NCBI GenBank assembly: GCA_002356215.1
Contig: AP017959.1
Location: forward strand, 744,001 to 808,000
Length of the DNA stretch: 64,000 nucleotides
DNA from: [Synechococcus] sp. NIES-970
GTDB taxonomy: Bacteria; Cyanobacteriota; Cyanobacteriia; Cyanobacteriales; MRBY01
Direction: 5' to 3'
Shown: in pieces, positions 23,282 through 29,221 of the stretch
How the letters are laid out: each line of letters opens with the position of its first letter
Position numbering within the stretch: position 1 is the first letter of the stretch
The notes under the pieces: generated by a model
What the model was told of the DNA's origin: nothing
Database searches by the model: none
Seen by the model: the letters and a program-made list of their open reading frames with translations, nothing else
Translations under genes and position numbers: made by a program

Positions 23282-23332
23282 GCTATTTTTGTCCTGACAG
23301 CGACATCCTAAAACGACATTTTATGAATAAAA

Positions 23333-23362
23333 ATGGGCAGCTCTTAGGCTGCCCATTTTTTT
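23333..23362 (+). terminator. rho-independent terminator after atpE
   Basis: ATGGGCAGC and GCTGCCCAT form a perfect 9-bp stem around TCTTAG, followed by seven T. The A-rich sequence before the stem gives a U tail on the other strand too, so it probably also ends the convergent ycf65 transcript. Confidence 0.9.
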
Positions 23363-23440
23363 ATAGAAAATTAATTAGAAAATAAAAACTGTAAAAACTT
23401 AGCTAGTGATTACGTTTAAAACAAATTTAGGTAATAAACC

Positions 23441-23743: not shown

Positions 23744-23926
23744 AGAAGCCTCCAAACCCAAATTTTAGACAAATGGTTTCAAAAATTTACAGTCTATTAT
23801 TCTACATTGAAGCGGGAGCTTTGGCTGCCCCTAAGAAAATCTCCTGAATTTTTTGCGGCGGAACCCATCGTTGCGATCGCCCCCCGCCATGTTATTGGGA
23901 CAGGTGAATGTTAGACTATCTAAATG

Positions 23927-23994
23927 TAGACAAATTTCTTTGTCTATACCACCCCGATTAAGCAATCCTGAAGTGGGCCTGACCCGCTTTTTTT
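23927..23994 (+). promoter_or_regulatory. candidate transcription attenuator in the rimP-infB leader
   Basis: Two structures lie in the plus-strand leader just before rimP. TAGACAAA/TTTGTCTA (23927-23934 and 23939-23946) is a perfect 8-bp hairpin with loop TTTC. AGTGGG/CCCGCT (23972-23977 and 23983-23988) is followed by seven T (23988-23994), a classical intrinsic terminator that ends 17 bases before the rimP start. The upstream plus-strand gene (atpE) already has its own terminator 600 bases away, and ycf65 runs the other way. A terminator here therefore has only a leader RNA to stop, as expected of attenuation control. Confidence 0.6.
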
Positions 23995-24011
23995 GTTGTC
24001 TAAATTTGCCC

Positions 24012-24476
24012 ATGGCTCATCCCCTCATTTCTCAAATCATGACCTGTGCCGAACCCATTGCTGCAGCGTTGGGTTTAGAAGTGGTGGACGTGGTATTCCA
24101 GACGAATAAAAAACCACCGGTATTACGAATTGATGTGCGGAATCTCTCCCAAGAAACAGGGCTGGAGGATTGTGAACGTTTTAGTCGCCAATTCGACCCT
24201 GAGTTGGAGGCCCAAAACATCATCCCTGGAGCCTATGTGCTGGAGGTATCAAGCCCTGGTACTGACCGTACCCTAAGCACTGACCGGGAATTTATCGCCT
24301 TCCGGGGCTTTCCGGTACGAGTCAAAACCTATAGCCCCTACAAAGATCACAAGGAGTGGTGCGGCACGCTCAAGGAGCGGGATGAAACGGCGATCTATCT
24401 CAATCAAAAAGGAAAGGCGATCGCCATTCCTTGGGAACTCGTTGCCAAAGTACAACTCGACGATCACCAAGCCTGA
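24012..24476 (+). CDS. rimP: ribosome maturation factor RimP
   Basis: A 154-residue RimP protein. The N-terminal alpha/beta domain has ALGLEVVDVVFQTNKKPPVLRIDV and ETGLEDCERFSRQFDPELE (about 17-75), then YVLEVSSPGTDRTLSTDREF, and a C-terminal SH3-like barrel (WCGTLKERDETAIYL). It acts in 30S subunit maturation. The frame is open upstream to 23853, but the ATG at 24012 matches the family start and the upstream part contains the leader structures. It is first in the operon with nusA, ylxR and infB. Confidence 0.95.
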   Translation: MAHPLISQIMTCAEPIAAALGLEVVDVVFQTNKKPPVLRIDVRNLSQETGLEDCERFSRQFDPELEAQNIIPGAYVLEVSSPGTDRTLSTDREFIAFRGFPVRVKTYSPYKDHKEWCGTLKERDETAIYLNQKGKAIAIPWELVAKVQLDDHQA

Positions 24477-24539: not shown

Positions 24540-25760
24540 ATGTCCCTTGTAAGTCTCACCGGTTTAAGTGCCCTCGTTGCCGAAATCAGCGATCGCCATA
24601 ATCTGCCCCAAAGCGCCGTCCATGAAGCCCTACGCGAAGCTCTTCTCAAAGGCTATGAACGCTATCGCCGTTCCCTGACCCTCAACCAAACGACCCCTTT
24701 TGCTGAAGATTATTTCGATAACTTTGAAGTAGAACTCGATCTCGATGATGAAGGGTTTCGGGTCTTAGCAACGAAAGTCATTGTCGAAGAAGTCGAAAAT
24801 ACTGACCATCAAATTGCCCTCCGGGAAGTCCAAGAGGTGGCCAGCGAAGCCCAACTCGGCGATTCTGTTATTCTCGATGTCACCCCTGAACAAAGTGATT
24901 TCGGGCGGATGGCAGCGATCCAAACCAAGCAAGTTTTGCTCCAAAAGCTACGGGATCAGCAGCGCAAACTGGTTCAGGAAGAATTTCAAGAACTTGAAGG
25001 GGAAGTGCTCCAAGCCCGGGTACTTCGTTTTGAGCGCAATTTTGTCGTCATGGCGGTTACCAGTGCCTTTGGCCAGCCGGAAACCGAAGCGGAGTTACCC
25101 CGCCGAGAACAGCTCCCCAATGACAACTACCGCGCCAACACCACTTATAAGGTTTATCTCAAAAACGTCAAAGAAGGCTCCCATCGAGGACCGCAGCTCG
25201 TCGTTTCTCGGGCCGCTGCAGATCTCGTGGTTTATCTGTTTGCGAACGAAGTACCAGAAATCGAAGAAGAAATTGTCCGTATCGTCGCGGTCGCCCGGGA
25301 AGCAAATCCCCCCAGCCGCTATGTAGGCCCCCGGACTAAAATTGCCGTCGATACCCTTGAGCGGGACGTAGATCCAGTCGGTGCTTGTATCGGGGCGCGG
25401 GGTTCTCGAATTCAGGCGGTGGTCAATGAGCTGCGCGGCGAAAAAATCGATGTGATCCGTTGGTCTCCTGATCCTTCGACCTATATTGCGAATGCCCTCA
25501 GTCCAGCCCGGGTTGATGGGGTAATTTTGGTCGATGCAGAAGAGCGGCAGGCCACAGTACTTGTTCCCGAAAATCAACTGAGTCTCGCCATCGGGAAAGA
25601 AGGGCAAAATGTTCGTTTGGCCGCCCGTTTGACGGGATGGAAAATCGATATTAAAGACAGTGCTAAATACGAGGCGGAACAGCAGCAAACCCCCGCTCCA
25701 GAGGTTGAAGTGGCGATGCCAGAAGCACCGGTAGAAGAAGCCGCATCGACGGAAGTCTAA
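24540..25760 (+). CDS. nusA: transcription termination/antitermination protein NusA
   Basis: A 406-residue NusA. It has the N-terminal RNA-polymerase-binding domain (about 1-130), an S1 domain (LQARVLRFERNFVVMAV and on), and two KH domains with GACIGARGSRIQAVVNELRG (about 280-300) and AIGKEGQNVRLAARLTGWKI (about 350-370). The C-terminal acidic repeats of E. coli NusA are absent, as usual in cyanobacteria; a Glu/Pro/Ala-rich tail replaces them. It lies 63 bases after rimP. Gene order rimP-nusA-ylxR-infB is widely conserved. Confidence 0.97.
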   Translation: MSLVSLTGLSALVAEISDRHNLPQSAVHEALREALLKGYERYRRSLTLNQTTPFAEDYFDNFEVELDLDDEGFRVLATKVIVEEVENTDHQIALREVQEVASEAQLGDSVILDVTPEQSDFGRMAAIQTKQVLLQKLRDQQRKLVQEEFQELEGEVLQARVLRFERNFVVMAVTSAFGQPETEAELPRREQLPNDNYRANTTYKVYLKNVKEGSHRGPQLVVSRAAADLVVYLFANEVPEIEEEIVRIVAVAREANPPSRYVGPRTKIAVDTLERDVDPVGACIGARGSRIQAVVNELRGEKIDVIRWSPDPSTYIANALSPARVDGVILVDAEERQATVLVPENQLSLAIGKEGQNVRLAARLTGWKIDIKDSAKYEAEQQQTPAPEVEVAMPEAPVEEAASTEV

Positions 25761-25811: not shown

Positions 25812-26066
25812 ATGGAACCAAACCTACGCCGCTGTGTAGCCTGTCGAAAACTAGCCCCGAAGGAATCTCTTTGGCGAGTCATTCGAGTCTATCCATCCCA
25901 GCAGGTACAATTAGATCGGGGTATGGGGCGTTCTGCCTATCTCTGCCAGGACCACCGTTGTTTGGAAATGGCCCAGCGTAAGGATCGGCTCGGGCGATCG
26001 CTCAAAAAAAATGTCCCCCCCACTATTTATCAAACCCTTCAAGAACGCTTATCTTCCCTAGATTAA
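25812..26066 (+). CDS. ylxR: YlxR/RnpM family RNA-binding protein
   Basis: An 84-residue basic protein with the family hallmark RRCVACRKLAPKESLWRVIR near the N-terminus, GRSAYLCQDHRCLEMAQ in the middle, and a Lys/Arg-rich end. YlxR folds as a small RNA-binding protein, and in Firmicutes a homologue (RnpM) modulates RNase P; other reports describe nucleoid or regulatory roles. It lies in its conserved place between nusA and infB. The ATG at 25812 is the only sensible start. Confidence 0.88.
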   Translation: MEPNLRRCVACRKLAPKESLWRVIRVYPSQQVQLDRGMGRSAYLCQDHRCLEMAQRKDRLGRSLKKNVPPTIYQTLQERLSSLD

Positions 26067-26302: not shown

Positions 26303-29221
26303 ATGAATAACGAAAAAGTTAGAATTTACGAACTCTCAAAGGAATTAGATCTCGAAAACAAGGATATTTTAGAATTTTGTGCTCAGCTGGCCATCGATGT
26401 GAAGAGCCATAGCAGTACCATTACCGTTGAAGAAGCAGATAAAATCCGGGCGATCGCCACACAAAAGCGCCCCCATCCCCCGAAGGTCCAGCGTCCCCAG
26501 AAAAAGAAAAAGCAAGAAATTCTCTCTGTACAACACCAATCTTCGACAGAGCAAGCGCAAACTGGTACTTCAACTGTCGCTACTCCCCCCAGCCCCCCAG
26601 CCCAATCTCCCAAAAAGTTAGAACGCCCTAAACTACAAGCTCCGCCGCCCCGGAGTGCCGCCGTGCCAAAACAGGACACAACCCCAGTTGTTGCGCCCCC
26701 CCCCAAAGCAGAAACGACCAACCCCCCAGCCGAACCAGCTCCAGCCGTTGCTAAGCCGAAGCTCATGGGCCCTCCCCCGCGGCCAGTCGCTAAATCCGCC
26801 ACCAAAGCCGAAGGCTCTCCAGAACAGGCGAGTGGCGCAACCCAAGCGGATGTCCGGGCAAAATCTCTGTCAAAAAATACCGCTGAGCCCCCTGCAAAAC
26901 CACCAAAACTCCGGCCCAAGCCCCAAATTGTTGGTACTGTTAGCAAAAAAGTAGCTGCTCCCGTACCTGCAATCGAGCCTGACCTAGATGAAGAAGTAAC
27001 CGCAGCTCCAGACCTCGATGGAGATGACGGGGCAACCCCAGACGTCCTACTCGCTCCCCCCAAGCGTCCCGTCGCAAAACCGAAGAAAACCATTGGTGGG
27101 CCCATTAAGCCCGGTAAACGCAAAGTCTGGGAAGAAGAGGAAGAGGACGAATCAGAGGCGAATAAAGCAAAAACCACCAAACTTAAGCGTCGTCCAGTTG
27201 TCATTGATGATGACGACGATGATGAGTTCGGTACATCTCTCAATAACAACGCGGATATTCCCTCCGTTAGTCTGTCAATCGCACGGCCTCCGAAGCCAAA
27301 GGATCTATCTGCTGGAGCGCCCAGTAAGCCAACCCCCTCTCGGCCTAAAAAGCCCGCCGCAAAGCGAGGGAGTGGTGGCAGCCATCAGCAGAAAGAACAA
27401 CGACGCGATCGCCGGGAAGTCCAAGCCCCGCCCACTGAGATCTCACTCACTGAAACCATGACCCTCCGGGAAATGGCAGAGGTCCTTTGTATCCCAGAAA
27501 CAGATATTATCCGCCGCCTCTTCAGCAAAGGGATTGCGATTAATATCACCCAAACCCTGGACTATGACATCGCCCAGATGGTAGCCGAGGAATTTGAAGT
27601 GAAGGTTGTTGTGGCAGATGTAGAAGCCGCTGCCACCAAATCTACCGAAATGGTTGAGTTCGACGATCTAGAACACCTCCAGCAGCGTCCTCCCGTCGTG
27701 ACCATCATGGGACACGTTGACCACGGTAAAACGACTCTCCTCGACTCGATCCGCGAAACTAAAGTCGCCCAAGGGGAAGCTGGTGGGATTACCCAACATA
27801 TTGGGGCGTACCATGTGGACATCGAACACAATGGTAAACCGGGACAAATTGTCTTCCTAGATACCCCTGGCCACGAAGCCTTCACCGCTATGCGTGCCCG
27901 GGGTGCCAAGGTTACAGACATTGCGATTCTTGTGGTTGCCGCCGACGATGGCGTTCGTCCCCAGACCCTGGAGGCTATCCGCCATGCCCAAGCCGCAAAA
28001 GTTCCCATCGTTGTTGCCATCAACAAAATGGACAAAGTCGGCGCAGAGCCTGATCGCGTAAAACAGGAACTCTCTGAACAGGGACTCCTTTGTGAGGAGT
28101 GGGGCGGTGACACAATCATGGTTCCCGTCAGTGCATTGAAGGGCGAAAACCTCGATACATTACTGGAAATGATCCTGCTTGTATCGGAGATCGAAGAACT
28201 CTCTGCCAACCCCGATCGCCTCGCAAAAGGCACAATTATCGAGGCCCACTTGGACCGCGCCCGCGGGCCTGTGGCCACTCTCCTCGTCCAAAACGGCACA
28301 TTGCGCGTGGGCGATATCATCGTTGCGGGCTCTGTGATGGGCAAAATCCGGGCAATGATTAGCGATCGCGGCGAAAAAGTTATTGAAGCGACACCTTCCT
28401 TTGCCGTGGAAATTCTCGGCTTAAATGAAGTCCCTGCCGCTGGGGATGAATTTGAAGTTTATCCCTCCGAAAAAGAAGCCCGGGCGATCGCCGACGAGCG
28501 GGCCGAAGGCAAACGTCAGTCCCGTCTCCAACAGGCGATGTCCTCCCGTCGGGTCAGCCTCAGTAGCCTTTCTGCCCAAGCCCAGGAAGGGGAGCTCAAG
28601 GAGCTCAATCTTGTCCTCAAGGGTGATGTTCAAGGTTCCGTTGAAGCAATTCTCGGCTCTTTGCAGCAGCTCCCCCAAGATGAAGTTCAGATCCGTGTAC
28701 TCCTGTCGGCACCTGGTGAAATCACCGAAACTGACGTAGATCTCGCCGCGGCCAGTGGTGCAATCATCATTGGCTTCAACACCACCCTAGCCCCGGGTGC
28801 TAGACAGGCCGCTGAGCAGGAAGGGGTTGATATCCGTGAATACAACGTTATCTATCGTTTCCTAGAAGAGATTCAAGGGGCGATGGAAGGTCTGCTCGAT
28901 CCCGAAGAAGTAGAAGAACCCTTAGGTCAGGCGGAAGTGCGGGTCGTCTTCCCCGTGGGCCGTGGTTCCGTAGCTGGTTGTTACGTCCAGTCCGGCAAGG
29001 TGGTACGGAACCGGATGATCCGCGTCCGCCGTGGCAACACCATTGTTTATAACGGCTCCCTCGATTCCCTGAAACGGGTCCGGGAAGATGTTCGGGAAGT
29101 CAGTGCTGGCTATGAATGCGGCATCGGCGTTGATAAGTTCAGTACCTGGAAAGAAGGGGACATCATCGAAGCCTACGAAATGATCTTCAAGCGCCGCACC
29201 TTGGCTGGCCGCACCAGCTAA
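26303..29221 (+). CDS. infB: translation initiation factor IF-2
   Basis: A 972-residue IF-2. It starts with an IF2-N module ([20 protein letters not shown]). A long Pro/Lys/Ala-rich disordered linker follows (about 55-370), with Asp/Glu-rich runs near 280-310, then a second IF2-N ([20 protein letters not shown]). The GTPase domain has [12 protein letters not shown] (about 469), DTPGHEAF (about 520) and NKMDKVG (about 574), and domains II-IV follow to the end. It delivers initiator fMet-tRNA to the 30S subunit. It is preceded by a 236-base AT-rich spacer after ylxR that may hold its own promoter, and it ends the operon. Confidence 0.98.

Follow-up and report, generated by a model that had tools for sequence, protein, structure and literature searches.

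The window, a 64,000-nt stretch of [Synechococcus] sp. NIES-970 (GCA_002356215.1, AP017959.1, positions 744,001-808,000 of the forward strand), carries rimP, nusA, ylxR and infB in succession downstream of a short leader, as identified by Pfam. The leader's upstream neighbor, PSRP-3/ycf65 (Pfam), is divergent and lies on the minus strand, and the nearest upstream plus-strand gene, atpC, ends about 690 bp from the leader and has its own hairpin with a T run, which leaves nothing for a terminator in the leader to terminate and bears out the initial annotation on this point. The features of the region are as follows.

23912..23917, plus strand: candidate -10 box TAGACT, from comparative evidence, with a predicted transcription start at about 23924
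23925..23948, plus strand: predicted 5'-terminal stem-loop of the leader RNA (perfect core 23927-23946), from its fold, a structure kept in relatives and compensatory changes
23949..23969, plus strand: spacer including the stretch CACCCCGAT, kept within the genus
23970..23990, plus strand: intrinsic terminator stem-loop GAAGUGGG-CCUGA-CCCGCUUU, from fold and conservation
23988..23994, plus strand: U tract of seven
23995..23998, plus strand: GTTG, a conserved (A/G)TTG right after the U tract
24012..24476, plus strand: rimP (Pfam RimP_N, DUF150_C)
24540..25760, plus strand: nusA (Pfam NusA_N, KH_5), presumed regulator and target
25812..26066, plus strand: ylxR (Pfam YlxR)
26303..29221, plus strand: infB, encoding IF-2 (Pfam IF-2, IF2_N)

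Two further elements were seen upstream of the leader. Between the convergent atpC and PSRP-3, a AATGGGCAGC-TCTTAG-GCTGCCCATT hairpin at 23329-23363 with A and T runs on either side is apparently a bidirectional terminator, and a segment around TTTACAGTCTATTATTCTACATTGAAGCG at 23766-23816, kept within the genus, is probably the minus-strand promoter region of PSRP-3.

The leader comprises a perfect 8-bp hairpin, TAGACAAA-TTTC-TTTGTCTA (23927-23946; 10 bp counting flanking pairs), and an intrinsic terminator, GAAGTGGG-CCTGA-CCCGCTTT (23970-23990), whose T7 occupies 23988-23994 and ends 17 bases before the rimP ATG at 24012; the initial annotation had placed hairpin, terminator, T run and gap exactly to the base. 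The 76-nt leader folded at -21.8 kcal/mol (z -4.3) into these two hairpins, closed by a weak outer stem, a stability equaled in 0 of 200 shuffles, while the terminator alone reached a z of -2.7 against shuffles, with a moderate stem of -9.8 kcal/mol. Its pattern occurs a single time in the genome. When the surrounding 14 kb was scanned for generic terminators, 20 sites were returned compared to 18.8 in shuffles, and given this lack of excess the case for the terminator rests on conservation. We also considered a leader peptide and rejected it, as no start codon with a frame lies between the predicted +1 and the terminator, and the ATG near 23923-23925 is directly followed by TAG.

To assess conservation, we gathered rimP upstream regions from 110 genomes of the order, of which 108 were readable. 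The pattern G(T/C)GGG-loop-CCC(G/A)C-T4+ was present on the sense strand in 104 of these 108 regions, and occurred in 0 of them antisense and in 0 dinucleotide shuffles. Among the 104 order-level leaders the terminator loop measured 5 or 6 bases in 96, the U tract was exactly seven in 83, and ATTG or GTTG came next in 79. The four exceptions comprised a changed stem (L072), an insertion (L110) and two related genomes without the motif in the region read (L084, L101). Within the order the distance from terminator to start codon ranged from 10 to more than 300 bases, a variability that argues against a ribosome-binding or translation signal. The initial annotation had named a lack of conservation of the hairpin with its T run as grounds for abandoning its proposal; we found the reverse, and its premature terminator at the head of the operon accompanies rimP/nusA almost universally, at a distance from the start codon that varies. 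Beyond the order, most class-level genomes retained the motif or a version of it built on a different GC stem, and retention extended to other cyanobacterial orders and, within these, to a deep family that resembles Gloeobacter (L165, L169). The motif was absent from a picocyanobacterial-looking family (L142-L151) and from the majority of genomes in a distant family of the phylum whose genomes are small; as judged from sequence, the terminator motif is lost in picocyanobacteria. The last ~100 bases before rimP in L142-L151 hold another conserved stretch, GCCTGACGG..CCTCC-loop-GGAGGCAGGTCA..GTCGGGC, which had no Rfam match.

A sigma-70 consensus scan at the locus found no promoter above chance, and a comparative search for -10 boxes was therefore used. 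TANANT boxes were concentrated 60-90 nt upstream of the terminator stem across 132 leaders, and TANRNT preceded the 5' hairpin by 0-14 nt in 76 of 135 leaders and by 7 nt in the window, where this -10-like box, required by the leader model, precedes the hairpin core by 9 nt. Such boxes just before the hairpin place it at the extreme 5' terminus of the predicted RNA. When 131 leaders were compared, folding was strongest between 62 and 26 bases ahead of the terminator stem (mean z -1.93 versus about -0.3 elsewhere), and stems in the 5' hairpin region outscored those of control regions (p 2e-13). The structure is kept while its sequence varies between genera: within the window's genus one C-G pair has become T-A, and in one relative clade 96% of cells pair and four of the eight pairs have changed on both sides, far above slid controls. 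The covariation suggested by the initial annotation as a check was thus found for the 5' stem in one relative clade, as compensatory changes at those four pairs. The hairpin is probably most simply read as a 5'-end stabilizer or pausing aid. In a large clade including Nostoc, Fischerella and Scytonema, a CTTC(T/A)TGGAAG box whose spacer (GATATCCCTATCGCAGGAAG) is almost constant is conserved 25-40 nt ahead of the terminator stem (e.g., L189, L198, L045). We rejected this box as a general antiterminator, given that it occurs only in some clades and is absent from the window's genus.

An exact scan for AAGTGGG-N4-7-CCC(A/G)C-TTTTTTT-(A/G)TTG across ~85,000 bacterial and archaeal genomes gave 80 readable loci among the matches listed, of which 76, from several phyla, lay upstream of rimP and/or nusA. 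All 39 cyanobacterial loci among these matches preceded rimP, and 37 of the 41 non-cyanobacterial loci listed preceded rimP and/or nusA, with L203 unreadable. The exact consensus stood elsewhere at L214, L215 and L216 among the matches listed, in the first case before a signal-peptidase-like gene. At 11 of the loci listed, mostly from Planctomycetota and Chloroflexota, the element lay directly before nusA with no rimP detected between them, which indicates that the element follows nusA. Titles of the matches listed covered Marinimicrobia, Planctomycetota, Deltaproteobacteria, Desulfobulbaceae, Chloroflexota and Hydrogenedentota, and further Acidobacteria/Thermoanaerobaculia, Alphaproteobacteria and Eggerthellaceae; many of the cross-phylum matches are metagenome bins, so single taxon labels may be wrong. 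Near-alike leaders in bins labeled Marinimicrobia, Rhodospirillaceae and unclassified (L185, L221, L232, L244) probably include at least one wrong label. In L248, L229 and L243 (Desulfobulbaceae/Deltaproteobacteria), an ACATCG...CGATGT-type hairpin stands a few bases upstream of the terminator.

We propose, with a probability of roughly three in four, that the region comprises the promoter and 5' leader of the rimP-nusA-ylxR-infB operon, and that the leader is a NusA-stimulated attenuator of the rimP-leader type without an antiterminator fold. Pairing of upstream segments with the 5' arm of the terminator did not exceed chance (mean z -0.05), and a competing antiterminator is therefore not indicated. 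The B. subtilis NusA leader studied by Mondal and colleagues in 2016 reportedly works without an antiterminator as well. Transcription would start near 23924, and the nascent RNA would first fold the 5'-terminal stem-loop, probably an element of stability or pausing, before RNA polymerase reaches the intrinsic terminator, a modestly strong one with a GUGGG/CCCGC stem and U7. Some complexes would stop there and release an RNA of ~70 nt, and the others would continue into rimP and nusA. Polymerase-bound NusA would stimulate stopping, such that high NusA turns the operon down and low NusA turns it up, a negative feedback by early termination that needs no alternative antiterminator fold. Because the stop signal is almost invariant and sits in the same place in nearly all related cyanobacteria and in several other phyla, the leader is very probably a switch that holds NusA at the right level.

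Three observations make NusA-stimulated early termination the most likely mechanism. In B. subtilis, NusA-stimulated termination in its own 5' leader sets the NusA level (Mondal et al. 2016, as relayed in the review PMC12288461). With Synechococcus elongatus RNA polymerase, NusA enhances intrinsic termination in vitro (PMC13289151). Finally, cyanobacteria are without Rho (PMC13289151), and a search of the NIES-970 genome for Rho gave no match above the family cut-off. The comparative evidence strongly supports attenuation; NusA as its sensor we infer, and the start site and termination in vivo are predictions. The autoregulation by NusA put forward in the initial annotation is thus consistent with our results and most likely, given the loci where the element directly precedes nusA and the B. 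subtilis and S. elongatus precedents, with the identity of the sensor as its inferred part. Three points speak against this interpretation: the conserved stem sequence could serve another factor, picocyanobacteria and most genomes of the distant small-genome family live without the motif, and of the c...g that flanks the loop in the GGGc(...)gCCC stem of Naville and Gautheret the window has one half (GGGc...aCCC). A bolder extension, which we offer tentatively and consider somewhat doubtful, is an ancient sensor read at the sequence level, in which polymerase with NusA would recognize AAGUGGG-loop-CCCRC-U7-RUUG itself. This near-invariant cassette of <30 nt would then govern nusA operons in many phyla, follow nusA even without rimP between them, and have been lost in picocyanobacteria in favor of another conserved leader.

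Among the alternatives, an attenuator with another sensor, in which RimP, a ribosome-assembly signal, NusG or the elongation state sets read-through, is unlikely but survives best. RimP is encoded by the first gene in all cyanobacterial cases read, feedback by RimP was also weighed by Naville and Gautheret (PMC2965389), and the RNA-level evidence presented here does not discriminate between sensors; however, the same element precedes nusA directly at the 11 listed loci without detected rimP (Planctomycetota, Chloroflexota and others), and the sensor demonstrated in B. subtilis, according to PMC12288461, is NusA. We give still less credence to a fixed partial terminator, a weak stop that trims the operon to a constant fraction while nothing senses it. 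The moderate stem of -9.8 kcal/mol and the lack of a detected alternative structure would suit such a device, but any weak stop would do, and a stem sequence, U7 length and RTTG conserved across phyla would be unneeded. Very improbable is a leader that mainly serves as a free small RNA gene ("actuaton"), whose ~70-nt RNA acts in trans while the operon lives on read-through. Units of sRNA and mRNA built in this way are known in Synechocystis (PMC5386190), and a stable 5' hairpin with a terminator would yield a discrete RNA; yet the RNA outside the terminator varies freely between genera, unlike a trans-acting sRNA, and the main text of PMC5386190 does not name rimP or nusA. A reading of the element as a chance hairpin, or as the usual 3' terminator of some upstream gene, would fit the generic scan but is refuted by the divergent upstream gene, by the distance and separate hairpin and T run of atpC, and by the motif staying with rimP in nearly every order-level genome.

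In Synechococcus elongatus, canonical intrinsic terminators close only 22% of transcription units (2026 study, PMC13289151). A strongly conserved terminator of this kind ahead of nusA would offer a clear native system for testing how termination depends on NusA in cyanobacteria. The presence of one exact cassette on the nusA operons of several phyla also means that an old idea (1985-2016), in which NusA reads the leader of its own operon, can be tested by comparing bacteria.

The closest known system is the rimP-leader, which in its original description ranks as the most ubiquitous attenuator of bacteria and has a GGGc(...)gCCC stem, no antiterminator, NusA as the best candidate regulator and 4-130 nt between terminator and gene start (Naville & Gautheret 2010, PMC2965389). 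The window element likewise lies 5' of rimP-nusA-infB, has a G-rich 5' arm, a C-rich 3' arm and a T stretch (here GTGGG/CCCGC and T7), stands 17 nt from the gene start, inside the published range, and combines a variable distance to the start codon with the absence of an antiterminator structure. It differs in that the GGGc...gCCC flank is half present (GGGc...aCCC in the window, mostly GGGt in relatives), the c...g being printed in lower case in PMC2965389, which we read as less conserved, and in that the conserved stem is AAGUGGG/CCCRC with U7 and RUUG, preceded by a structurally conserved 5'-terminal hairpin. On sequence grounds, the window's leader has the main defining features of a rimP-leader. 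The main text of Naville & Gautheret 2010 (PMC2965389) makes no mention of cyanobacteria, and the literature searched contained no treatment of the rimP-leader in this phylum. Rfam RF01770 (rimP) is similarly the leader of the rimP-nusA-infB operon in Escherichia coli, where GGGCTTTAGGCCC-T7-ATGT precedes rimP in K-12, a downstream hairpin with a GGG/CCC stem and U7. This 102-position gammaproteobacterial model, with E. coli as positive control, matched neither the window nor its genome, nor sampled relatives at gathering score, and an Rfam search of the window region at gathering score and at E up to 10 gave no match. The B. subtilis NusA attenuator has its terminator within the 5' UTR of the nusA operon; in the leader studied here a terminator is present, and the start site that would place it in a 5' UTR is predicted. 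The B. subtilis attenuator was shown experimentally and has a leader of ~180 nt (PMC2965389), whereas the cyanobacterial leader, predicted at ~70 nt, is known from anatomy and conservation. Synechocystis actuatons (PMC5386190) resemble the predicted arrangement in that a terminator closes a short 5' RNA and read-through yields the mRNA of the gene that follows, but those listed are defined by abundant sRNA. The kind of element is therefore known (Naville & Gautheret 2010; Mondal 2016), and its cyanobacterial form, for which the literature searched gave no analysis, adds an extended consensus, a covarying 5' hairpin and evidence that the element tracks nusA rather than rimP.
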